64,000 bases of DNA, from the NCBI GenBank assembly GCA_021234155.1, contig JAJEKV010000033.1:7986635-8050634 (forward strand), given 5' to 3'. Of the stretch, positions 1 to 60,420 are shown in pieces. Source of the DNA: Isoetes taiwanensis. Taxonomy: Eukaryota > Streptophyta > Lycopodiopsida > Isoetales > Isoetaceae. The translations under genes and the position numbers were made by a program. The first letter of the stretch is position 1. Each line of letters starts with the position of its first letter. The notes under the pieces are model-generated. The model had not been told where the DNA came from and did no database searches. It saw only the letters and a program-made list of their open reading frames with translations.

Positions 1-48
1 TAACTAAAGATAGAACTTCTCATTGAAGCAAAATAGAACGGCATGGAG

Positions 49-113
49 ATCACACGACGCGAAATCCATTGATTGCTACCTAATTGCAAGCAAGGCATTT
101 CGCGTCGTGTGAT
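49..113. repeat. 65-bp palindrome with ATCACACGACG ends (copy 1)
   Basis: The first and last 17 bases are perfect inverted repeats (ATCACACGACGCGAAAT and its complement) around a 31-base middle. The same 11-12 base terminus recurs at four other places within 5 kb while the middles differ. It resembles a very short MITE or a transposase-binding palindrome of a larger element. No target-site duplication is obvious. Confidence 0.8.
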
Positions 114-229
114 ATTTTAATAAAACAGAACATACATTGGAACAACAGGATAGATAGAAGCAAAAATAGAAAAACTTTTCTTTGAAGCAAAAATAGATAG
201 ATACAACGGCTAGGGATCTTCATGATCCT

Positions 230-607
230 CTAGCTGATTTTCATGTCCTGCAGCTGAAGCCGTAAGGCTGCGTTCTCATCCTCCGCAGCTCGGAGCTTCT
301 TCTCCATATCTTCTAAGGCCTGCGAAATCATGTGAGCAGTTTCAACTGCCTCGGCCCTGCGGCTCGTCGCCTCTTGGTACATGGCGAATGTTTCCACGAG
401 CTCAACGTCTCGCCGTGCAGCAGCTCCCTCGTGAAGGCTAATCAGTCGACCGCCTCATTGTTCTCGGCGACGAGGCGGTTGTTTTCATCATGGATCTCCT
501 TGAATCTCTTCATCACCACTTTGCAAGGGTGATGTCCACGCAGCTCGGGGGCTGGGGAGTGCTATCTTGGCGTGGTCGCCTTTGCTAGAGGAAGATGATG
601 ATGCCAT
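230..607 (-). pseudogene. Small coiled-coil protein, Ser-rich N-terminus, frameshifted
   Basis: I do not recognise a named family. An ATG at 607 opens a Ser-rich N-terminus (MASSSSSSKGDHAK). A frame slip near 520-530 and an in-frame stop near 438 interrupt it. The C-terminal part reads as a heptad-rich coiled coil (EKKLRAAEDENAALRLQLQ) and ends at a TAG at 232-230. Further coiled-coil-like sequence (DENNRLVAENNEAV) lies upstream. The length would be about 125 residues. It lies between ATCACACGACG palindromes, so it is probably an accessory ORF of the same mobile element as the H3-like gene downstream in the window. A regulatory or oligomerising protein is only a guess. Confidence 0.45.
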
Positions 608-707
608 CGAGCAGAAGGTGGAAGGCGGGCCGGAAGTAGAAGATGAGCGTATAGGCGGAAGGCGTCGGAGGTCGGCGCGGACATCGGTCTTCTATTTATA
701 ACATGAG

Positions 708-735
708 TCACACGAGTTGCTTCTGCATCGTGTGA
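708..735. repeat. Short TCACACGA palindrome (copy 2)
   Basis: TCACACGA and TCGTGTGA face each other across 12 bases. It is a shortened relative of the 65-bp palindromes at 49, 2529 and 4697. Confidence 0.5.
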
Positions 736-790
736 GGAATAAATAAATTAATTGTCTTTTTCCAATAATATTTCATTTCTTGAGATAGAT

Positions 791-847
791 ATCACACGAC
801 GAAAACCTAGATATGATGAAAAATCGGTGATGTATTTCGTGATGTGA
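791..847. repeat. Degenerate ATCACACGACG palindrome (copy 3)
   Basis: The left arm ATCACACGACGAAA is exact. The right arm TTTCGTGATGTGA is a diverged complement. The 57-base length matches the family. Confidence 0.5.
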
Positions 848-1447
848 ATAAATACAAATAAAATAATTTTTATTAGGAATTTCGAAGGACAATCAGTACA
901 TAAATAATTTTACCGATACAAGTTGGAAAACATATAACTTCCAATTTCTCAAGCTTCGGCCGTCAATTTCATGCTCTTTCAATCCCCCTCACAAGACCGA
1001 TCCAACAAGGCAATGACTTCCATGTTATCGACCCCACTTTCAACCTTGGGTGAGTCAAGCCCGGCTAAAAATTTAACATATTGCTCGCCTGGCACCCGGC
1101 TTGGTCGTCAAAATATTGTAACACAACATCCCGCCCAATTGCTATCACCCTTTTCGGTGTTTGATGCCAATTGGGAATGGTTCCCAACATGCATAATGCA
1201 CGGAGGTAATAGACAAACTCTGCACCCTTTGACTGAAAGTTCTCAATAAGACGATTATCTCCCCATTAACGAATCTTGAGATATATCTTAACAATGTAGA
1301 GTCCTTCAATCAATCTTTCCCCACCCGTAATGTCGGCAAGAAAAATCATCTACTTCCCACAAATAAGAACCCTCAAGATTATCTTCTTCACATTTATCCT
1401 CATCTACCAGGGCTTATCTTTCTTGCGATTGATGAAGGGCACCAAAC

Positions 1448-2378
1448 TCAGATCCTCTGTTGCGCTTTGCACGGAGACGCTTTGGAATTCTTCTTCCGTT
1501 GGTAGATTCGCCTCATCTTGAGCAAATCGAGACTCCAAATCTCATATGCTTCTTTAAGCTTTATAGCATTGCCGGTATAATTAGATACTTCAAACATCTC
1601 TTTGTCCAAATCCTCTTCAAAATCTAGGCCTAAGTTTACCCATTCGGCCAAGGTAATGATAAGCTCGTCTTCCTAGCACACATTAAGTAACATATAGATC
1701 GTTCCTCAAGATATCACTTAGCAATAAGTATTCTTTGCCTTCCACTAAAATTGGCGTTATGTCGGACAACTTCTTTTCATCCTCATCCCCATCCTCATCA
1801 CCTTGAATCATCTCCCTCCTCCGGTTCACCCAAGGCCGGTCAAAAACTAAGCTAAAACTCCTACATTCTTGCTCTTCTTCTTGTAGATCTATCTCCATTT
1901 CTACGTCATAGTCGGCATCATCACACATAACCGACCCCTCTTGGCTTAAAGATTTCATTGTTTCGATGTATCTTCGGGTTTGGCCGAAAGCGAGAATGCA
2001 ATAACTAGCAAATGCAAACGGCAAAGAGAAATAAGATACCTTCTTAAGCACAAGGGCGCGCGGCCGGGGAGGAGCCGTTTCGCGAAACATTCTTGAAAAA
2101 CATCTTCCCCGTTTGCAAATGGGAAGCCGCTCCCTCTAGAGCTGGTTTTGGAATCCACGAGCGGGGACATCCGCAAAGGGCGTCTTGGCCCGAGACCAAG
2201 CGGTGCAGGTGAAAGCTAAAGCAACCTCGCGATAGCATCCAAGCTCGCTCTTCGTTGCCATGATGTCCAACTCCTTGCAATAGAACGGATAAATCGCGGT
2301 CGGCGCAACTTCCTCGTTGTCATGAGGGCGTATGCATACCATTCCGGGAACTTCACATAACAATCCATGGCGAAGCAA
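1448..2378 (-). pseudogene. Unrecognised coding-like relics in the H3-bearing block
   Basis: Several overlapping minus-strand reading frames have protein-like composition but break every 60-130 codons. One (2090-1683) has an acidic stretch (DVEMEIDLQEEEQE, then DEDGDEDEKK). Another (1651-1448) is charged and helical. No catalytic motif could be recognised, and I looked specifically for Ulp1-type His/Asp/Cys motifs. They probably belong to the same element as the coiled-coil and H3-like ORFs. Confidence 0.3.
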
Positions 2379-2500
2379 ACAGCGAAAACAAGAAGATGTT
2401 TAGGAGCCGGTAAGGCCCGCCATCGCTTTTGAACTCAAGTAGCCGTTGTCGATTATGAAAGGGGACACGGTACCGTTGTGGGGAGATTTGTCCGTACATT

Positions 2501-2526
2501 TTAGGGTTAGGGTTAGGGTTAGGGTT
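2501..2526 (+). repeat. Four TTAGGG telomere-type repeats
   Basis: TTAGGG is repeated four times in tandem and ends two bases before the palindrome at 2529. The unit is the six-base form, not the usual plant TTTAGGG. Confidence 0.85.
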
Positions 2527-2528
2527 GG

Positions 2529-2594
2529 ATCACACGACGCCAAGACTACTATGTGCAACAAAAAGCACAATGCTTCTTGGCTACGTCGTGTGAT
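2529..2594. repeat. 66-bp palindrome with ATCACACGACG ends (copy 4)
   Basis: The ends ATCACACGACG and CGTCGTGTGAT are perfect inverted repeats, with further pairing (CCAAG/CTTGG) inside. The loop sequence differs from the other copies. It abuts the TTAGGG array. Confidence 0.8.
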
Positions 2595-2709
2595 CCTCAC
2601 GTTATAACATTAAAAAAAAAAAATACAAAGTCTTGAAGCTAGGCTTCTAAGAAAGAAATGGACTAAGAGATTAAGCTTATAAAGCCATTGCATTAAGAAA
2701 TATTATACA

Positions 2710-3606
2710 TATGAAAAAACACAAAAGGCACTTCACGGCCTTTTTAAGGGGGTCTTTCTTCTTGTTGTATTCAGCCATAAAATTTTGACCATAGTACTTT
2801 CGGGATCCCTTATCGCGTAAGACGAGGCGCATGTTCTTGGGCATGACAGGTCACCCGCTTGGCATGTATTGCTTGCAAGCTGCGAGTCCTCGAAACAGGC
2901 CAGACACCAACCGCTTCGAAGCCATTTGAAGAGCATTTAAAGGCGGTTGCTTTGAATTATAACTGGTATGATGTATCGCACCACACTCTTTCTTGAATCT
3001 CTCTCACGAGCACGGCAAATGGGAGACGCTGAATGACCATCTCGGTGCTCTTCGATACTTCTTAATCTCGAAGGCTCTTTAATACCAGCTTAGTCTTCCG
3101 CCGGCCTCTACCCTCACCCACCCGGCATTTGGAGCACATTTGCTCGGCCGACTCTTCCGCCGCCTCCCTCACCCGGCATCTGCGGGCTGTTCCTCGGCCG
3201 ACTCTTCCGCCGTCTCCTCACATTCCCCGATCGCCTTCCCCTTTTCTCGGCGTTGGGCCTCCTCCTCGATTTGAAGGTCACGCACCTCCACGGGGAACAG
3301 GGAGGAGCGAGGAAAAGAGCAAGAAGAGGCGGCTGCCCAATAATTAATCCGGCATCATATTACGCTTCTTGGTCTCTCACATTTTCATCCTCGTCTCCGA
3401 ACCGAGTGCACCTCCCTACTTACTCCTCGAGCTGCTTCTCCCCTGATGCATCATGCGGATTTCTTTTCCGGGTCTTACATTAGGCATGGTCGGAGGAGGA
3501 GAATCTCTATCGAGAGACTTCGAGTCGAGATGAAGAAGGCGGACTAATGTAATCACCGGCCTTACACCACTGGATGGATCCTTGCGGTTTGCTTAGTTCT
3601 TGCCAT
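2710..3606 (-). pseudogene. Histone H3-like gene, diverged and frameshifted, in mobile-element context
   Basis: An ATG at 3606 opens MARTKQTAR, identical to the first nine residues of histone H3, then diverges. After about 480 bases of low-complexity charged sequence (RDLQIEEEAQRREKGKA), the histone fold appears in pieces: EIKKYRR near 3057; STEMVIQRLPFAVLVREI at 3049-2996, aligned with H3 STELLIRKLPFQRLVREI; NALQMASKRLV and FEDSQLA (H3 ALQEAAEAYLVGLFEDTNL); AIHAKRVT at 2872-2849, identical to H3; then MPKNMRL in the next frame (H3 MPKDIQL). A basic tail of ~30 residues follows where canonical H3 would end. At least four one-base frame shifts separate the pieces. It is too diverged for canonical H3 and unlike plant CENH3, which usually begins MARTKH. 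It is flanked by the palindrome family, so capture or domestication by a transposon is the best inference. Confidence 0.8.
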
Positions 3607-3728
3607 GGCTTCTCGGATGGCGCTTTATACTACTTAACACCGACAAAAATAGACAATCGCGGGAGATAAATAGTAAAAAAACAGAAGTTAAAGTAAAATA
3701 TGATGGTAACGTTTTTAAATAATTGTAT

Positions 3729-3790
3729 GCGGAACCCTAAAAAATATCGGACAAAATCACGGAACCCTAAAAAACATCGGACAAAAACAC
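3729..3790. repeat. Two-copy 30-bp tandem repeat with AACCCTAA (telobox) motif
   Basis: Two near-identical units, each CGGAACCCTAAAAAA followed by TATCGGACAAAA or CATCGGACAAAA, lie head to tail about 120 bases upstream of the H3-like ATG (minus orientation). AACCCTAA is the plant telobox motif seen in promoters of growth and histone genes, but here it may be chance. Confidence 0.55.
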
Positions 3791-3858
3791 AAATAAAAAC
3801 CGAGATTCAAAGCGCTAGCCGATAGACAATTTCTTGTTGATCGCGAACTCACTAAACT

Positions 3859-4701
3859 TTACATTTCCCTCTTGCACAGAACCAACCCTAATGCCATCAA
3901 TAAAATAATGGAAGTCGTCGGCCAATTTCCTCTGTCTCCATTAGCACTCTTAGCTCGATAATGGCCATTCGCTTCCATGGTGGCCGATAAAATGACTTCC
4001 TCCCTCTCCATACTTTCGAATATCCACCGCGACGGAGTGTCTATTATGGTCCTCAAACGGCTCCCAAAAAGTTGTGCAGCCTCTCTTTTTCTGTTTCCTT
4101 CGTTCTAGTTGACAATTAACGTATAAATATTGTTTTGGAAGAAAGTATCTGAACTTAAAGGAGGACTTAACTACGCGGACCTCTGTTAGTTGACCGGATG
4201 ATTCGTGGAATCGAACATCCCAGGTCGGAACCAAAAATAAGCCATCCACAAAATCGGCAGGGGGGAGAAAGCACATATATGTCTTCGGAGCTTTTCGAAC
4301 TTCCTGCGCCATCTGGAATATGTTAGCAAATACCTCAAACGGTGTGAAGATTTTGAAACTCATCCTCACGCCTCCGTTTTGAGCATTATTCCCGCTTGCA
4401 CCTCGTCAGCCATGCATTTCTTCATTGCAATTACATTGTTCTCATTAGTCTGTGGCTTACAAAGTTCACTTAAAGGGGGCAATTCAACCGGCCTCAAGCT
4501 CGGTTTCCTGACCTTTACGTCCATGGCATCCATACCTTGGAAAAGGACAATTCCGATGTCTATGTGATACACGACAAGTACACTACTAATACTTTTCGGC
4601 CGGAATGACATCCACGACGTCCCGATAAACATAAACCCCGCACAATAAATTTGTTTGTAAACACGTGTCAACGAAAAGAAATGAAAAGATAAGAAGATCA
4701 C
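3859..4701 (-). pseudogene. Unrecognised ORF upstream of the H3-like gene
   Basis: Minus-strand frames from 4701 to 3859 read as protein for about 280 codons, with frame slips near 4366 and 3955. Recognisable stretches such as CFLPPADFVDGLFLVPTWDV and VAVDIRKYGEGGSHF look like real folded sequence, but I cannot place them in a family. It shares strand and spacing with the H3-like gene and is bounded upstream by the palindrome at 4697, so it is probably part of the same element. Confidence 0.35.
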
Positions 4702-4760
4702 ACGACGCCAAACTATCTCTACGCAGCTAGTAGGCTGAAAGCTAACCGGCGTCGTGTGAT
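4697..4760. repeat. 64-bp palindrome with ATCACACGACG ends (copy 5)
   Basis: ATCACACGACGCC and its complement bracket a 38-base loop. With an extra G and C outside, the arms pair over 14 bases. It lies exactly between two coding-like segments on the minus strand. Confidence 0.8.
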
Positions 4761-4762
4761 CC

Positions 4763-5161
4763 GTTTAAGGTGGTTACCATTTAAGGGCAATTTTGGGAAG
4801 CTGTTTTTGGTGGAGATTAGCTCTTTGGCCATATCAGAAGGGGTATATGCATGTCGTATTGTTATACTTTCCACTTTTCGGCCGCTAGAATTCAACTTGA
4901 ACTCTTTTATCCTACCTATCCAATGTGTCCGCACGTCTGATCGCTTTTGTCGCTAACTCTATGCTCGCCCTGGTTGATGGCGACATACTCACCTGAACCT
5001 ATTGAGACAAAACCTCCCACTTCTTGACCTTGGGAGTTCTGTAAATGGGGCAAGAACACGTAAATTACGGGAGACATGGATTGCGGATGAGGAGGAAGGC
5101 GGAGAGGATGCACGAGGCGCCGGAGTGACAAGATCTGAAGTTTGGCGCCAAAATTTGACAA
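4763..5161 (-). pseudogene. ORF with possible BAH-like segment
   Basis: Two overlapping minus frames join near 4925. The join reads GEYVAINQGEHRV, a short linker, then IGRIKEFKLNSSGRK and ITIRHAYTPSDMAKEL. The order (G-x-x-V-x-I, then IGRI-x-EF, then R-x-x-Y-x-P-x-D) resembles the core of BAH chromatin-binding domains. The similarity is short and could be chance. If correct, this element would carry a histone-like protein and a chromatin reader side by side. Confidence 0.25.
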
Positions 5162-5798
5162 GGGAGTTGGTGACCCTGACAGTAGGCGGTCAAAGTCACC
5201 ATTATTTTGGGCGGCGAAGCGACTCCCGAAAAATACGGGCCATTAAAATGGTTGCAATAAAAGCGCAGGCATCCCCTATGAAAATACGCCATGTGGATGC
5301 CAAGTAAGCCTGCTCATCCTTCTACCTGCCAAGTAATACTGACTTTCGTAAAAAAGGCGCAAACCTGATTGGTCCTGGCGAATCTGACGTGGAAATCTTT
5401 AGCCCAAGATAAGGGCCATTTTCAGACCCCAAATCCGCCCTAATGTGATTGTTTTCACTGCAAAACATCCACATTCTTTGAGTTTGATGCCAAGTATACT
5501 AGATCATGGATGGCGAAGCATATTCAAACTGCACATGCTTTTTTCTAGAACATGACATTCTATATATCTGGACCACTCTAAGAAGAAGAAAGTAACAGAA
5601 TAAGAAGAAGACAAGAAGAAGGTATGGAGAGATTTTAAAGCAATCAATACTGCAGATACAAGATACAGCCAAGTTGCATGTGGGGAAGCGTTATGCCCTC
5701 AAATCTGGTTCCTAGGCATTTTTCTACATGATTACACCATGTGATCCTAAACCAGTTAATTTTAAAAGCACCCACCAAAAGCTACTTGTACCAACTAC

Positions 5799-5916
5799 CG
5801 ATTCAACATATCTGCTGTACCGCTTCCCTGGAATGGCTTCATGCAGCTGGATGAGAAGCCCAAAGGTATACGTTTGCCAGCAAAATGCAATGGCCAGAGA
5901 CAAGAGACCCCAAAAC
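5799..5916 (-). pseudogene. Orphan exon of an LHT/AATL1-type amino-acid transporter
   Basis: The 118-base segment has an AG acceptor before 5916 and a GT donor after 5799. It encodes GLLSLAIAFCWQTYTFGLL followed by IQLHEAIPGKRYSRYVES. This is the second transmembrane segment and the LHEA-PG-RYSRY loop typical of plant lysine/histidine-transporter-like permeases (amino acid/auxin permease family). No flanking exons could be found within a few kb on either side. It is therefore either a captured gene fragment or part of a gene with very large introns. The frame is open and the splice sites are intact. Confidence 0.65.
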
Positions 5917-5919
5917 CTG

Positions 5920-7420
5920 CGATTTACAAAACTCCACATATTAGGCATGCTAAACGGCCTATCAAATCAAGCAGAATAGGTTGCACCTGGACACCCGAAT
6001 CTTGATCAGAGAAAGAACATCTATCATCTAAGCACAAATGGCCGCTCTAGAACTCAAATCCTTGCCATAGAGTATGCGGATCATAATACAAAAGAGCCCC
6101 TCCTTTTAAACACAGACAAAACGATGGCACTGTCTGGCCTGCAGGCTACTCCGTTCAAGACCATAGTCATCCAGCAAGCTTTTTGACAAAGACACAGGCC
6201 ATAGAAGCAATATCTCGTATCTTCCCTATTAGTCACGTCTGATCTGCTCTGCTGCACCGATGGAAACCAGGTATGAAAGTGCAGTAAAATCAAAGAGTTT
6301 AATCGGTGGAAAAATGGAGCAAAAGGGGACTTTTGGGGGACCAAAAGGGAAGAAAAATGGGCAGGAATGGGGCCGCCGCTGCAATCCAACATGCCAAATC
6401 GGAGGAAAAAAGAAAAGACCCTGAAAAAAGAGGTTCGAAGATCTCTCTGCCTGATGGCCGGAGCACGACTGCAAGCATCTGGGGGCGGGATTCCGAAGCA
6501 ATAGGCATCCAAAAAATAAAAAATAGCCATGCCATGAAGCTAGCATAGCCAAGTTCAGGACAGCAAAGGAACAGTAGAACACAATGTGCTAGGGCCACGC
6601 CGAAAGCTCTTCGGCAGAGCTTCAGAGGAGGCTTGAAAAAAAAAAAGGGGAAGTTACTCCGTGACCCTTTCCATCTCCATGCCCATTTTTGGCAGATTTT
6701 CTAATTTCCCTGGCCTTAGATTTGCAAAAGCCAAGATCTGATGGTGCAAAATAAGGCACATCAGATTTTGATGACATGGAAATTACACGTGGATAGGCTA
6801 GAATTGCAAGAAAGGTTGTAGGCCCGGTAGGGCTGGTGTGCTAAAAAAGAAAAAAAAAAAAAGAAACACAGAAGTATAAAAGGACAAAAAGCTCAAGTTA
6901 AAGCATGTGAAATAGCAGTAGTCGTATTTCTTTTTTTGCTTTAAATAGATTAGCTTCAATCTTGAAAGGTCTAGAATGTATTATGCATCTACAAGAGTGT
7001 GTTGTTGTGCTAGCTCAAGAATAATGAAGAACATATAGGTGGTAGCAAGTACAAGGTATCAAACTTGAGTTTTCGATGCTAAAGTCATTAATTCCATGCA
7101 AGAGCGTCAGCCACATCATCCCCACACTCCATACTCACTCACATGCCATTGTTTCACTCATTCATTCATTCATAGTGTGCTGCTGCCATTTCTGCTATAA
7201 TAGTTGCCTATTCTACTAATGTATGCTTGGACATGTGCAGATCCACCTAAAACACGCACATCACGTGTTAATTTACTCAAAGTTGCCCAAAATCCATGCA
7301 AGCCTATTCTTTCTTCCCAACCACCTACATCTAGTTGTCATCACAATTCCACATGGCAACTCCACTGTGCTAGCTTTGTATACATTTGTCATGCAGGTTC
7401 ACCATATATATATACAAGAA
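5920..7420. other. Intergenic, no gene recognised
   Basis: Only short frames without recognisable motifs are present, including a 149-codon minus frame at 6530-6081 that I could not relate to any family. There are A-rich runs at 6637 and 6846. No RNA gene is seen. Confidence 0.5.
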
Positions 7421-7463
7421 TTTAGCGCTGGCGGAGCCAGCGCCGTTTTTATAGTGGGAGTTG

Positions 7464-7650
7464 GGTATAGATATGAGTTTGAGGGCATTGTCTTTTTTTT
7501 TCAAATTTTTATTGCACCTCTGGGAGTCGAACCCAGGGCAACGTTTTTTTCGTTGTGACAGCTGGATATAGATAGCAGTTTGGGGGCGGCATGCCTTTTT
7601 TTTTAAGTTTTTGTTGCACCCCTGGGAATTGAACCCAGATATGACCAATG
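7464..7650 (-). repeat. Tandem pair of tRNA T-arm-like units
   Basis: Two ~95-base units each contain a T-rich run, then on the minus strand a T-arm with pol III B-box consensus (GGTTCGACTCC in the first, GGTTCAATTCC in the second) flanked by pairing CTGGG/CCCAG, then a GGTGCA-like acceptor end. D and anticodon arms are absent, so these are not tRNA genes. They look like SINE-type or tRNA-tail remnants inside the Helitron 3' region. Confidence 0.55.
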
Positions 7651-7764
7651 GTGCAGGGACGACAGTGTAGAGGGAGCATCGATATTCTAAGATGTCGGTG
7701 CTCCGCCTACATCGTCGGCGTGGATGGATTTTTTTTTTTTTTTTTTTTGGGATACGCACCTGAT

Positions 7765-10700
7765 TTATGGCAAGAGTTCTTTGTAGACGACATTCGTTGT
7801 AGTCTGTGTAAGGTTGTTGGCGTCTAGGAGGATTAGTACGTCCTCTTTTCTTCGTACACGTGTCAGTGCTGCATACAGTTGTCCGTGCGCAAAGACTTCG
7901 GTTCATAGATCCAAGACTATTTTGTCGAGTGTGAGCCCTAAACAGCTATTGAATGTCATTGAGTATGTTGGACGTAATGGCAACTGTCGTCTGTGAATTG
8001 TCCATGGTCGATCATTTGGTTGAGTGAAAAAATCGACTCGGGAGATAGGGTGAATGTTTCCATGATGTTGTGGGTCATCTGTAAGTAGCTTGACAGTGAC
8101 GAATCTATTACGCGTTGAACATACCATTACTCTTGCATTTTTTACTAATCCTATATCTCTGTCGAGTGTCTTTGTCAAGTGGCATATTGTTGTTTGGCTT
8201 TGGTGTTTATAACCGTTGAGGAAATCCGTTGTTGCCATTGGGTGATCTTCTATAACTTGATCATTTTCTGTGAGTCTATCGACGCTGAAGTAGAACTTTG
8301 GATATCCTGGAAGCATTTGTAGGATGCAATTATTAAATGCGTCGACAGTGATGTTTTTCGGAGATAAGAAGGCTCTTTTTTCGCAAAGCTCAGGTTTGCT
8401 GAGTATGTCTTGGTTGTAGAGAAAGTTAATGGCGTCCTGGATGGTGATAGTTGTCTTGAATAATGTCAGTGGAATGTTTTCTAATAGCATCTTTCGGAGC
8501 AGTATGTCAACTGCCTCTATAACTGCCCTATTTGCCATTGGGAATTCGTCCCATATAATAGCTCTTGATTCTTTAATGAGCAATGCTCTTGTTGAGCGTG
8601 GATTAAGTAAAGAATGCAGGTTGATATTGTTTTCTACTACAGGTATCTGAAAGAGCGAATGTGCGGTTCTTCCACCAGGATATAGTAATGATGCTAGTGC
8701 TGTTGTTGCGCATGGTAAAACAATTTGTCTTAGTCCTCTTATGTATAGCGAGAACGCATTAAGGACATATGTCTTTCCTGTGCCTGCTTTACCATAGATG
8801 AAGAGTGGCTTGAGTTGTCGCCTATTGTGAAAAAGGTTCTGCATTTCGATATAGACAGATGTTTGGTTTGATTTCATGTTCTGAAACATAATTGAGCTTT
8901 TGGCAAGGTATTCTTCGTCATGGGGGAATTTTGCAAGCTCATTTTGGATTTCTCTGCATGGTACATGGCAAATGGGTAGGCTGAATGCTGCAGTGTTAGT
9001 TGCATGTTGCACTAAGATGTTATTAATGGCCAGGAGGGCTTCATTGGTGGCAGTAGGCTCATCCCCTTGGTATTGGTCCAGAAAGTCAGTTGTCATTTGT
9101 TGTTGAAAGGTTTCCCATAGCTGCAAGGCTGGTCCACCATCGAGTATGAGAAGTGTAAATAGAAATCTAAGTTGCGATGGGGTTTGGAGGCATAATATTG
9201 CTTCTTCCATTGTCTTAATTGCTTCAGTTGCTGGTGCAATTAAGCCTATAGCTTGAGCAGTTTCTTGATAGGTGTCATAGTGTTGGCCATCGTGGATTTT
9301 GAGGTCTTCCCAAGAACGTCCATATTTATGGAGAAGGATGCTTCTCAAGTAAAATGGTTCTCCAACCTTTGGGAGTAGTAGACGTATCCTGCAGATGAGT
9401 TGTCCCCTCGATCGTTCATGGACAACATTTCGCGCTGCGCCCGGGTATTCTTGCTCGAGTTGATCGGATGGTTGTAATATGGTATTGGGCTTATAACTAG
9501 TAAACGTATAGTGCTCGTTGTAGTCGATGTAAGTGATGGAATCGAATTCAGACGCGAGTGGGCGCAAAAAGTACCTATCCAACGCGGAAATTCCAATATT
9601 TGCTGTTGACGTTTTTGCAAATTGTGGTCTGTTTTGTCCCTTGAGGTGTAAAGGGAGACACTTGACCGATGGATGTTTTTCAGTGATGTGGTATGACATG
9701 ATTCTCCATCCTGCTTCCATGGATGACAGATAACGTGCAGAGATATAGTCTTGAATTTCGTTTTTTTGCTGCGGTTGGGTTTTATTGGTTTGATTTGTGG
9801 GTTGGGATGTGATATTAGGTGTAACTTGTGTCGATGATGACGATTTATGGTCAACATTAATATGAAAGCGAGTGGTATTCAAGACCCTTATAGATGTATC
9901 CATAAAGATATGCAAATATATGGACCGTCGATGCAATGTCTGCATATATGTGACAATCCATTTCTTGTAGTAAGAATGGAATATATGGAACAACGTTTAC
10001 GTCATTCTCTGTCCGTCTTCTATATTGGACATATCCCTTTTCGTCTATGTATGTTGTTGGATTTATAGGCTTTGGAGCAACATCTATTATTCTCTTTTAG
10101 GCATCGTTTTGTATGTCTATGAATCATATAATTTTCGACTTGCGCTCGCAATAGTGGGTCTGTTGGCAGTTCAGCGCAAATGAGTTGATCAATCATGTTG
10201 ACAGGAATATCATGTTCAGTTTTCACAACAATATGTGCATGTGGAAGGCCGCGTTTTTAGAATTCAATGACATGCATCATGTAAGATAGCGGACCAAGAA
10301 ATTTGCGGATAATGCTTTTTGTCTGTTGCACTCGTTCGTGGCATGCTCGAACGACAATGATTGGAATGTCTGATGCATTTTGTCCAGGCATCAATTTGGA
10401 CTTTATTTCTGGCCAGGCAGGATTAGTGGTCATAGTTATAAATAAGGTTGGCTTTCCTTTTACTCTTGCAAGTGCAAGTGCGTCGGCTACTTGCACTGTG
10501 CACCATCGTTTGCAGCCCAGAAAGGAGGCTGGCAGTATTCCATGCCGAGTATCCTCGTCGTCGTCATTAATGAAGTCTTCTTCGTGTTGGGTTAAATTGT
10601 GTCTGTAACCTTCTGTTGCAATATAATTGAGCCGTTCCTCTTCCACTCTTGAGTACATATCCACGAGATATTCATTGCAAAGTCTGCCCCATAATGAGAA

Positions 10701-11819
10701 GCGTGGTTCATGCAATAGCCTAGTTCGATACCAGTCTATTTGAGACATTTTGTGTTCATTACGTGGATGCCATCCTGGCGTTCCGTGTGGAAAGAACAAT
10801 GGATATTGCAGTGTTTCATATGCAGGATCAAGGATACTGATGAACACTGGTTTATGGTCACTTCGCATCCAAATTGCTGCAGTTCTTGGTTTAATTGTAA
10901 TGTTGTCGTTGGCATGCATTATACCGGCAATTTCATCTGATGTTGTGGGGTCTGCGAGCGTGAGTGTGGCAGGCGAGGCATTTAATTCCTTTACTGTTCG
11001 CAATTCCTTGATATACGGATTAATAGCGTCCAGATTTGCAGCAACTTGCATGATCCAAGTAGCTGGTATGTGTCTATCAGTGGCAATTGCATATCGATAT
11101 GCATCATCGTATAAATACCAATGCAAGGTGCTATTTGAGTCATTTGCAGATAGAAGACGATGATATGTTCGACCCATAATAGCAAGAGCTGAGGGTGTTT
11201 TTAAAGTGATGAAGTCACCTTTAACACCAAGTGCAGTGAAGCAAAATAAATTGTTAATCACTCGTGAGTCTGTTGCAAATTTGTGTATGCGGTACAACTC
11301 CTCTAGTTGGTGTGGAAGCTGTTCAAGAGGTGGGAGTAAACGACGGCCGTTATTACAACAAAAACTTGGGGTCTCAGTGTTCAAGAGTTGGATATGACAT
11401 GTTCCACATGTCTTAGTCCACTTAAATGGTTCATGGTCTATAGGTTTGGAACGATTTTGCATTTTCTCGATTTTGTTTTGCCAATGACCACCTGCACTTG
11501 ATGAGATAAGAGTTGAAAGAATTGGGACTTTTGTTTCTTGCTTTATGGATGACATTGGAGCTAGTAGTTCTAGGGAATTCAGAGATTTTATCTGTTGCTC
11601 CACGGGGATTTGACTTGCAACCACAATTCCCGTGGAGCTCGGTTGATCACATAATGAAATGTCACTATCTTTTGGTTCACCAGATATCAGTGTGTCAGGC
11701 ATTGAGGGTGTAATGGCCTTTATTTTTTTTCGAGCATTATAGTTTCTTTGCCTCGCATGATGTTGAAGGATTTTGTCTATTTGAACATCACTAAGATGTT
11801 CGGAATTTGGCGGAGGCAA
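7765..11819 (-). pseudogene. Helitron RepHel protein, broken by a nonsense codon and frameshifts
   Basis: RepHel nicks and unwinds DNA for rolling-circle transposition. The upstream ORF (11819-10257, opening on TTG, so its true start is upstream or spliced) contains the Helitron-like N domain (RCHIQLLN...FCCNNG, YPLFFPHGTPGW). An in-frame TAA at 10259-10257 stands just before KRGLPHAHI (HUH motif PHAH at 10244-10233), where Helitrons normally have Gln. Frame slips near 10030 and 9870 break the Tyr region (VVPYIPFLL, YLYGYIYKG). The helicase follows: Walker A GKAGTGKT at 8793-8770, Walker B IIWDEFPM, GLTLDK. A last slip near 7905 precedes FAHGQLYAALTRV and NVVYKELLP, with the stop at 7765. No single frame is functional. 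Confidence 0.9.
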
Positions 11820-58035: not shown

Positions 58036-59890
58036 AGTGAATTGTATGAGATGTTCAAAGATGAACATCCCGAAGAAGATTAGCATCGAAAAGTTCGAGC
58101 TGCTTAAGCCTACGCGTGTGAGAAGGTTGAAAGAGAGGAACACATGTCGCCGCTGGAAGCATGAACAAGCCGATCTATACAGAAAGCTTTTAGCCCCGAG
58201 GAGCAAATTTCATGCCAACCGTACATGTTCTTGTGGTGTTTGTGCAAAGCAGATGAGAACAATGGCGCCCCGCTAAGCTCCTTCTAAAACATTTCAAAAT
58301 GTTGGTGCTATGTGGAGAGCTACTACCCGCGGATAAGGAAGGCGAAGAGTGGCATAGTTTGGACCGGTGGTGAAGGGAGAGTGCCGTAATCGTGGCAATC
58401 AAAATATTCAAATCATCCTAAGGAGAAAGAGTCGCACGAGAACATTGAATGGCAAGTTTACAAGTACGCGAACGAACCTTCCAAAGCCGGCACTTCAAGG
58501 AGGTTGAAGCTTGTTACCGAAAAGCGGACTCCGTGTACATTGCTTGACAAGATGTTTCAAAGACCTTTTACAAAGTTCACTATTCACAACTTTTCAAAGA
58601 AGTTGGCAGAGCAAACAATTCAGAAATCGCAAAAATTTGAGGGATGATTCTCGCTTTGTCAAGAATGGACTTTGCAGAGAACTACACTTTGCAGCCATTC
58701 AGTGGAAGTTCAACCGAAAGATTGGAACAATGACCGATAACTATTCCGTGCATATAACCATGATGAAAGTCAATGGCGAGCTGAAAAAAAACTGCTCATT
58801 TGTATGTTTCCATGTTATGAAGCATGATGCTTTGTTCAGCCGACTCAAGAAGCACCATATTTGGATGATGCAAAAGGTTTTGGCCACATCAAATACCATG
58901 TCATGTGGTCCGATGGGTGTGCCGCCTTTAAGTGTTCTCGAGCCTTTTATTTGAATGTGGCCCAATATTATAAATAACAGTATAAAATTAGGGATGCAAG
59001 GAATTATTTTGGCTCGTGCCATGGAAAAGGAGAACATGATGGGCGTGTGTCGCTTTGAGAAAAGGTTCCCAGCACGAGCAAAGGAAAGAGAATGGTGTCC
59101 GATTTTGGGTGCCAACTCGCTTGCACTTTGCTGAGACAAAAGAAGTGCAAAATGGACAGAGTCATATGGGAGGTGATGGCGTAAGACATTAACAGGGACC
59201 CTCGCTCAGATTGTGAGACATTGCCCGGTACTCTAGCTATACATTGTGTGTCTCGCTATTAATCCAAATTTGACCCAACACTTGTCATGTATAGATCCCC
59301 GCCATGTTTTTGCAATGGTTGCTTGAATTTCGTGATGGGGAGAATGTGAGAATCTCGAGCATTGTGGTGCATGGAAGCCGCACAACCGGAGCCTAGTTCG
59401 CCCCAGTGTCGACCTAACAAGAAGAGCTAGTTGGTTTTTGCGCAACCGATGAGCAAGAACTATCCGATGTACTCCAAATTGAGACATATTTGCATCTTTT
59501 GCTGCCCTGTGGAATCATGAAAATGTTCCATACTGGCCCTCCTATGCGAAGGAGATGCATATTCTTCGTGAAGATGTGATTGACGACTATGGAAATAGAA
59601 TGTCGGCCGGTGACAGGGTTATAGCTGGTCATTACTATCAACTCGCTACAAGGCACAAAGCACAAGTTGTCGGATGACAAAATAGTATTGGTACCACCGA
59701 ATCAGAATTGAGCAAAGTTCACGATGCAAAGAAGTCAAGCATAAGTTGAAGGGGGTAACGACAAATATATATGATCACACGAGAGGTGCATGACATGCTT
59801 ATATCAAGCCTACACCGAGATTGTTGAGTGCACATGACTAAGTTCGCACAAAGGAACTTTCATATTTGCCATCATCTTCTCGTTATGTTG
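58036..59890 (+). pseudogene. DDE-type transposase relic (FAENY / WSDGC / HGKGEHDG family)
   Basis: The exon begins after CTTGCAG (58035) with SELYEMFKDEHPEED and FELLKPTRVRRLKERNTC, a Cys-containing N-terminal module that continues through TCSCGVCAKQM. The core shows DFAENYTLQP (about 58667-58700), then VMWSDGCAAFKCSRAFYLNV (about 58890-58950) and NYFGSCHGKGEHDG (about 59000-59040). These supply the three acidic residues expected of a DDE catalytic triad; the D-G-C and H-G-K-G-x-x-D-G boxes are also found in transposon proteins of animals and protists. Distal pieces continue to about 59700 (YDDYGNRMSAGDRV-like). At least six frame slips and two stops break it. I do not assign a superfamily name. 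Confidence 0.7.
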
Positions 59891-60420
59891 AGAAAACTAG
59901 TCGATTGTCGTAAGTTTTTTGTTATTTACTTATTCTTTAATCAAGTGCATTTTGATACTTCATTTTCAAAGATCACGTAATATCTTCCGTGACCAAGCAA
60001 AATGTATATCGAAAGTACAAAATGTTTATCAATTGTTGCATGAAGAAGTTAAACTAGTCCAGGTTATGTTGAGAAAAACTAGTCGATTGTCGAAGTTTTT
60101 TGTTATTTACTTATTTTTAATCAAGTGCATTTTGATACTTAATTTTCAAGATCACAGAATATCTTCAGACCAAGCAAAATGTATATCGAAAGTACAAAAT
60201 GTTTATCAATTGTTGCATGAAGAAGTTAAACTAGTCTCAGGTTATGTTGAGAAAACTAGTCGATTGTCGCAAGTTTTTTCTTATTTACTTATTTTTTAAT
60301 CAAGTGCATTTTGATACTTAAATTTCAAGATCACACAATATCTTCTCGCTTCCAAGCACAATGTATATCGTAAAGTACAAAATGTTCATCAATTGTTGCA
60401 TGAAGAAGTTAAACTAGTCC
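59882..60420 (+). repeat. Three tandem ~179-bp repeats
   Basis: Units start at about 59883, 60062 and 60240. Each reads GTTATGTTGAGAAAACTAGT, then CGATTGTCG, a T-rich part, AATGTATATCG and CAATTGTTGCATGAAGAAG. The third lacks a following copy. Differences cluster at short CG/TC-containing strings. They lie just after the transposase. Confidence 0.9.

Follow-up and report, generated by a model that had tools for sequence, protein, structure and literature searches.

In the genome of Isoetes taiwanensis, a DNA element that is present in many copies and bounded by 32-bp terminal inverted repeats (TIRs) contains a broken gene for a DDE-type transposase and carries its own variant of the histone H3 gene. 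One copy of this element reaches into the window, the 64,000-nucleotide stretch of contig JAJEKV010000033.1 analysed here (positions 7,986,635 to 8,050,634). Measured against one deep subfamily copy, the variant shows purifying selection, although most of the copies examined, including the one in the window, are dead. With modest confidence, we favour the reading that its protein becomes part of nucleosomes, or imitates them, and shields the element from host silencing.

The element occupies the left edge of the window, as follows.

1–5445, no strand assigned: right-hand part of the TIR DNA element, which runs 13,574 bp further left of the window
5414–5445, minus strand: right TIR, 32 bp (CATTAGGGCGGATTTGGGGTCTGAAAATGGCC on the minus strand)

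Long stretches at four other copies align with this locus up to the same two borders, one at position 5445 and the other 13,574 bp beyond the left edge of the window, and the sequence outside the TIRs is different in every long copy. The element is typically around 13.5 kb in length; the copy in the window is approximately 19 kb long, owing to an internal tandem duplication of approximately 5.4 kb. Perfect TIRs stand at both ends of this copy and of three of its four long relatives (C1107, C1039 and C1072), whereas C1027 was seen at its right end only. The copies thus have transposon ends, the absence of which had been named as a sign against a mobile element. The initial annotation was right that the neighbouring open reading frames belong to a mobile element and that ATCACACGACG palindromes occur among them, and it proposed a test of whether these palindromes flank each copy; they are internal, which rules them out as ends, and the real ends are the 32-bp TIRs.

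Across the 1.658 Gb and 1110 contigs searched, the TIR occurs at 1556 places (769 + 787; up to two mismatches) and in the reversed control at none. Among 99 of the 100 places listed, all of them perfect matches, 20 facing pairs lie less than 40 kb apart, and 15 of the 20 are spaced 13.2–13.8 kb. Window positions 2640–3660 match at least 40 loci, including their own, and the other full-length matches are 88–91% identical; 40 of 549 candidates were scored, and 28 H3 copies of these 40 were examined. For 19 of the 49 H3 starts among the matches listed, a perfect TIR lies 1823–1888 bp from the start codon on the promoter side. Both TIRs were found at 13 of these 49 starts (contigs up to C926) and at least one at 23; the comparison used perfect repeats only, so that the remaining 26 may have mismatched ends. 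The element ends in CATTAG..CTAATG, that is, it is of the 5′-CA..TG-3′ type. Fourteen copies, including a 5.4-kb derivative, were read on either side of the element, and no target-site duplication was seen: the identity adjoining the TIRs is 0 bp in nine, 1 bp in four and 2 bp in one, which is chance level. In five copies, the interior decays with many indels, yet the terminal repeats read there are perfect.

The H3 sequence within the element comprises the following features.

2731–3606, minus strand: broken copy of the H3-variant gene, equivalent to the intact 291-amino-acid frame of loci L004 and L036
3580–3606, minus strand: H3 N terminus MARTKQTAR, followed in intact relatives by I-H-P-G-G (Lys9 to Ile)
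2805–3110, approximate borders, minus strand: region of the histone fold, which switches between frames (EIKKYR / KSTEMVIQRLPFAVLVREI / ALQMASKRLVSGLF / AIHAKRVT / MPKNMRLVLRDKG)

A motif search placed MARTKQTAR at 3606–3580, RLPFAVLV at 3028–3005 and AIHAKRVT at 2872–2849 of the minus strand; a plus-strand reading was dropped, as none of the H3 motifs looked for is present on that strand of the window. The tail and fold motifs share an orientation, as first described, and chance is ruled out because a degenerate DNA pattern for MARTKQTAR has 1888 matches in the genome and 0 in the reversed control (the pattern leaves its final base open, and some matches therefore encode Ser at position 8). 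The H3-like gene that had been proposed is therefore real as H3 sequence, but the copy in the window is not intact: the frame opened by its ATG ends after 14 amino acids, and the frame of MARTKQTAR differs from that of the RLPFAVLV and AIHAKRVT motifs, marking a gene broken by frameshifts. The frame-1 fragment alone just misses the Pfam Histone cut-off (E = 9.5e-6, 26.3 bits against 26.4) and matches H3 and CENP-A chains in the PDB down to 7.4e-8, the best being Schizosaccharomyces pombe Cnp1; once the frames are linked through X, the match to Pfam Histone reaches E = 1.7e-11. No close relative of the broken copy was found among long proteins, the matches being H3-containing proteins only (39, E up to 0.001). 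Assembly error as the cause of the frameshifts is unsupported, although single cases are possible, given two copies without indels, many indels common to several copies, and clean ends.

A search of the same genome for further copies with intact frames, as had been proposed, recovered two among the 28 H3 copies examined, L004 and L036; L004 lies in C1072, a copy with both perfect TIRs. Each encodes 291 amino acids, in the order ARTKQTAR, I-H-P-G-G, a charged insert, a full histone fold and around 24 further residues. The insert of approximately 160 residues and the C-terminal extension that had been read from the broken gene are thus present in both intact frames. The insert, with 3 K, 21 R and 23 D + E in residues 10–164, is rich in P, R, S, G and E. 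Numbered as in H3, the protein retains K4 and has Ile for K9, His for S10, Pro for T11 and Val for K14, and the insert takes the place of the rest of the tail; with K9 and K14 replaced and the remainder of the tail given over to the insert, the protein is an H3 variant and not a canonical H3. The annotated retention of A1, R2 and K4 agrees with the ARTKQTAR start of the intact frames. K4, Ile9 and His10 were read in all 28 copies, which were picked by DNA similarity and not by tail, and 24 of them have T at position 6; the scoring passed over codons 6 and 8 (Met counted) because of insert columns.

The fold itself gives a Pfam match to PF00125 at 5.2e-31 and matches H3-type chains in the PDB at around 1e-30, which settles in favour of the annotation the question of whether it would align to the histone model. 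It is 61.7% identical to the H3 in protein P0001 over 94 residues. In alignments, loop 1 is four residues longer than in H3, and a lengthened loop 1 is a trait of CENH3; assembly with host H4 is therefore uncertain. A centromere-type histone, with a fold that descends from CENH3 or imitates it and an element that makes use of centromeres, would account for this loop, for the match of the broken copy to Cnp1, and for the RIQA-ALNALQ and KDM-LVL stretches that the variant has in common with the Adiantum protein P0039, which we read as a CENH3. The intact protein, by contrast, best matches ordinary H3 chains (60 of 173 PDB matches listed), has FED and MPKD motifs together with an H3-like tail, and is encoded by copies spread over many contigs, and we regard a centromere-type histone as quite unlikely.

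Divergence from an older subfamily points to past purifying selection on the variant, as judged from codon comparisons of which the strongest involves one divergent copy, L074. Between L036 and L074, from codon 12 onward, dS is 0.51, dN is 0.16 and dN/dS is 0.31 (Fisher P = 1.8e-9); dN/dS is 0.37 in the insert (P = 3.4e-5) and 0.22 in the fold (P = 4.3e-6). L074 is one of eight starts taken, for synonymous differences in the tail codons, from 100 listed MARTKQTARIH starts; it is open for 244 codons, and the other seven close after 14–138. It was chosen partly for its open frame, a choice that excludes stops and does not by itself lower dN/dS. Shorter comparisons with L036 gave a dN/dS of 0.36 (L071), 0.33 (L072), 0.69 (L068, 30 codons) and 0.23 (L004, 7 differences), and L074 against L072 gave 0.55. 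Recent copies are near neutral, with a proxy dN/dS of approximately 1.04–1.05 for variants found in one or two copies, and variants shared among recent copies give 0.66–0.81 in insert and fold. Twenty-six of the 28 copies are broken, with 2–37 small indel runs within the coding region. Over the whole element, the ratio of indels to substitutions is 0.14–1.56 per 250-bp bin, and in five long copies conservation of the H3 region does not exceed that of the remaining element. Individual copies therefore need no H3 of their own.

The broken copies, the near-neutral variation and the unexceptional conservation of the H3 region would also be expected had a host H3 gene been swept up by chance and carried without use. 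Fungi offer a precedent: a hAT transposon carries histone H3 in Pseudocercospora fijiensis and relatives, with hundreds of copies in P. fijiensis, and H3 is amplified in Pyrenophora tritici-repentis, according to the available text of PMC6710886. As in I. taiwanensis, a transposon there carries and amplifies H3; the fungal cargo, however, is described as a housekeeping H3, RIP-inactivated in P. fijiensis, whereas the element described here is another type of transposon, without target duplication, and bears a divergent 291-amino-acid variant with an altered tail, an insert and signs of selection. Such passenger capture seems unlikely to us in view of the dN/dS values of 0.31 and 0.22 against a deep subfamily at a dS of approximately 0.5, of a protein so far from ordinary H3 and yet frame-intact in two copies, and of a tail retained despite divergence elsewhere.

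The transposase gene lies outside the window, in the element's left half, and runs on the strand opposite to the H3 gene. Its reading, pieced together from four copies with X at the breaks, matches five proteins (P0040–P0044) at 5.3e-76 to 1.1e-50, none of which has a Pfam family above cut-off; a Pfam RAG1 match is also below cut-off (E = 0.018). The alignment of the five shows a conserved DE and DLK and, in the two of the five that extend that far, the stretch GMEKSH with the last E; C(2)C and H(4)H lie between the second D and this E. In the broken pieces of the element itself, D, D, E and H(4)H can be made out, C(2)C less clearly. The CMCT clade (CACTA/EnSpm, Mirage, Chapaev and Transib; RAG1) is characterized by C(2)C and H(3–4)H, mostly CA..TG ends and target duplications of 2–5 bp (Kojima 2025, PMC12730594, available text). 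By its sequence motifs, the transposase resembles the CACTA/Transib/RAG1 clade and the element is CMCT-like, with similar CA..TG ends and, in its relatives, D-D-E, C(2)C and H(4)H. We do not file it as a member because, although ends and motifs fit, the 2–5-bp target duplication is missing from the 14 copies; its protein relatives, moreover, have no Pfam family above cut-off. Membership in hAT or Zisupton was rejected, as the required 8-bp target duplication is absent from the 14 copies. No Rep-helicase domain was found in the scanned pieces of the element (part of its frames). A partly broken Helitron lies outside the element, at 7370–11819 of the window on the minus strand, with Helitron_like_N and a PIF1 helicase (Rep/helicase open reading frames at 7903–11819).

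Hairpins and further gene-like pieces surround the H3 gene in the window.

49–113, no strand: hairpin downstream of gene-like piece A; its C1107 equivalent lies 120 nt past the stop, z = −7.0
230–690, minus strand: gene-like piece A, short, beginning MASSSSSSK... in C1107 and approximately 73% identical in DNA to another module of the same element
about 705–737, no strand: second degenerate hairpin, read directly from the sequence; outside the paired-arm definition
791–842, no strand: degenerate hairpin with an exact left arm (791–801) and a decayed right arm; likewise outside the paired-arm definition
950–2500, minus strand: gene-like piece B, broken, no Pfam family
2529–2594, no strand: hairpin downstream of the H3 gene; C1107 equivalent 139 nt past the H3 stop, z = −4.9
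3818–4640, minus strand: gene-like piece D, broken; neither a significant Pfam family nor a protein relative turned up
4697–4760, no strand: hairpin between pieces D and E; C1107 equivalent z = −6.6
4770–5240, minus strand: gene-like piece E, broken, no Pfam family

The ATCACACGACG palindrome has seven arm matches in the window against 0.39 expected. Hairpins of 64–70 nt with arms near ATCACACGACGCGAA..TTCGCGTCGTGTGAT and a variable inner part number eight in C1107 and three in window positions 1–6000; positions 6001–64000 contain none with these arms, and there is none between D and H3. Five of those in C1107 lie 12–139 nt past the stops of open reading frames (12 for the transposase, 83 and 18 for two more frames, and the distances given above for A and H3). 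The C1107 hairpins (L013 and L014) are of near-constant length, several of them standing right after genes on both strands. Of eight that were folded, seven have z values of −2.2 to −7.0 and one of −0.8. They may be structures at transcript ends or mark borders between modules. Piece A may encode a coiled-coil-like protein, on our reading of its sequence; E had been considered a BAH domain, for which Pfam shows no match; and D, compared with 5.8 billion proteins, gave 115 candidates and zero with E up to 10. A TTAGGG tract (4.3 units) lies at 2501–2526, on the start side of B, and a 177-bp tandem repeat in three copies at 59882–60420.

Some giant viruses have histone genes and 3′ hairpins. An integrated remnant of such a DNA virus, and not a transposon, would fit several small genes each with a downstream hairpin, and would fit the absence of target duplication. 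We nevertheless hold this to be very improbable: the TIR is present at 1556 places, 15 of 20 pairs among the matches listed have the same 13.2–13.8-kb spacing, a DDE transposase-type protein is present, and IMG/VR gives no confirmed match for the exact-arm hairpin pattern or for the transposase.

H3-derived genes in this genome extend beyond the family in the window. After MARTKQTAR-type starts, K followed by a codon beginning AC, AG, TC or TG occurs in 25 cases, 23 of which are K-S or K-T by their bases, as in canonical H3, and I-H follows in 246. From the remaining approximately 1617 starts, we sampled 20 (among L084–L106), taken from the first 100 listed for their differing codons: position 9 is K in 16 and V in three, and one has Ser at position 8. 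None of the 20 has Ser or Thr at position 10, which for those with K9 is a consequence of the selection. As 16 of the 20 keep Lys9 without Ser or Thr after it, the starts are not united by a loss of K9. Three starts were read further: L104 has an H3 tail, a linker of approximately 280 residues with one stop and then a very divergent H3 fold; another is similar to L104 but broken; and the third has no fold motif within 1.4 kb.

An Adiantum H3-like protein used as a query has at least 150 matches (150 scored of 7492 candidates), many of them in long open frames; some are canonical host genes or members of the family of the window's element. At least three of the six loci fetched, plus L083, have an H3 fold behind an N-terminal part of some 250–360 amino acids. 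Open frames in which the H3 fold is fused to a long N-terminal part were seen at L082 (C1050:4833500-4843499), L083, L077, L078 and L081. Of these long genes, two have a visible start, and neither begins with MARTKQTAR. At L082, the H3 fold adjoins a Ty3-type gag, with direct repeats of approximately 1.5 kb. On sequence grounds, mobile elements of at least two classes in this genome thus seem to have acquired H3-derived genes, the LTR case being one locus. Homology of pieces B and D to the open reading frames around the LTR-type H3 genes is not claimed (shuffles: 4 of 300 for one piece of B, 86 of 300 for another and 6 of 300 for all of B; 21 of 300 and 56 of 300 for D).

The L082 locus bears on whether the variant serves transposition and not protection from silencing, packaging or marking the excised element or the transposase complex for compaction or for target choice through chromatin readers. 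The transposase gene in the same element, the reader epitope retained by the tail, and insertion without duplication, which suggests an unusual reaction, are in keeping with such a factor. An H3-fold gene that also adjoins a Ty3-type gag in a repeat-flanked locus is not, as the DNA intermediate would differ there, and we consider this role rather unlikely.

Silencing of plant transposons rests on H3K9 methylation, and it is evasion of silencing by the element's H3 variant that we infer. The variant protein would enter or mimic nucleosomes. Its retained epitope of H3 residues 1–8 would be available to H3K4 readers and writers, Ile9 would make Lys9 methylation impossible on the variant tail, and the variant would in this manner keep host silencing away from the element. 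H3K9 methyltransferases may, in addition, be trapped by the Ile9 tail, because at both H3K27 and H3K36 a K-to-I change, like K-to-M, reduces methylation of the corresponding lysine in trans (PMC12128920). H3K9 methylation is lowered by K9M and not by K9R (PMC12128920), K9M peptides with SAM bind H3K9 methyltransferases (PMC5335568) and H3K9M blocks H3K9 methylation in fission yeast (PMC5030085); in the available text of this literature on Lys-to-Met and Lys-to-Ile mutants of H3K9, we found no test of K9I. The changes of S10 and T11 could weaken methyltransferase binding, and the sampled starts in which K9 remains but its surroundings differ speak against a reading based on K9 only. A broader proposal, which we put forward tentatively and think doubtful as a whole, is that transposons of several classes in this genome, independently or by exchange, have been armed with H3-derived proteins, many with the first eight H3 residues, an altered K9/S10/T11 silencing site and divergent folds. 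These would be element-encoded chromatin directed against host silencing, and the tail of the window's family would be a natural K9I inhibitor of H3K9 methyltransferases.

Transposons with captured H3 or with DNA-demethylating enzymes are already known. The fungal DNA transposons that carry TET/JBP genes resemble the present element in their chromatin-related cargo, belong to several superfamilies and have been proposed to escape silencing; their cargo is a 5mC oxidase in fungi, and here it is a histone in a plant (PMC12730594, available text). In the oncohistones H3K27M/I, H3K36M/I and H3K9M, a methylated H3 lysine is likewise replaced and the preceding residues are kept, as far as the available text describes them (PMC12128920, PMC5335568 and PMC5030085); those are mutations of host H3, whereas here the protein is element-encoded and S10 and T11 are changed too. 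In searches of the open-licence literature, the fungal cases were the only transposon-encoded histones to appear, and none of the papers listed described an H3 variant that is encoded by a transposon and under selection. The variant shows how far H3 diverges while its first eight residues stay, and so isolates the part of the tail that matters. Evasion of silencing can be tested with one short peptide (ARTKQTARIHPGG) and one protein. Our analysis suggests that the element turns its own histone against host silencing; if that is true, host and element would be in an arms race fought directly over the histone, and nature would have produced a counterpart to the oncohistones.
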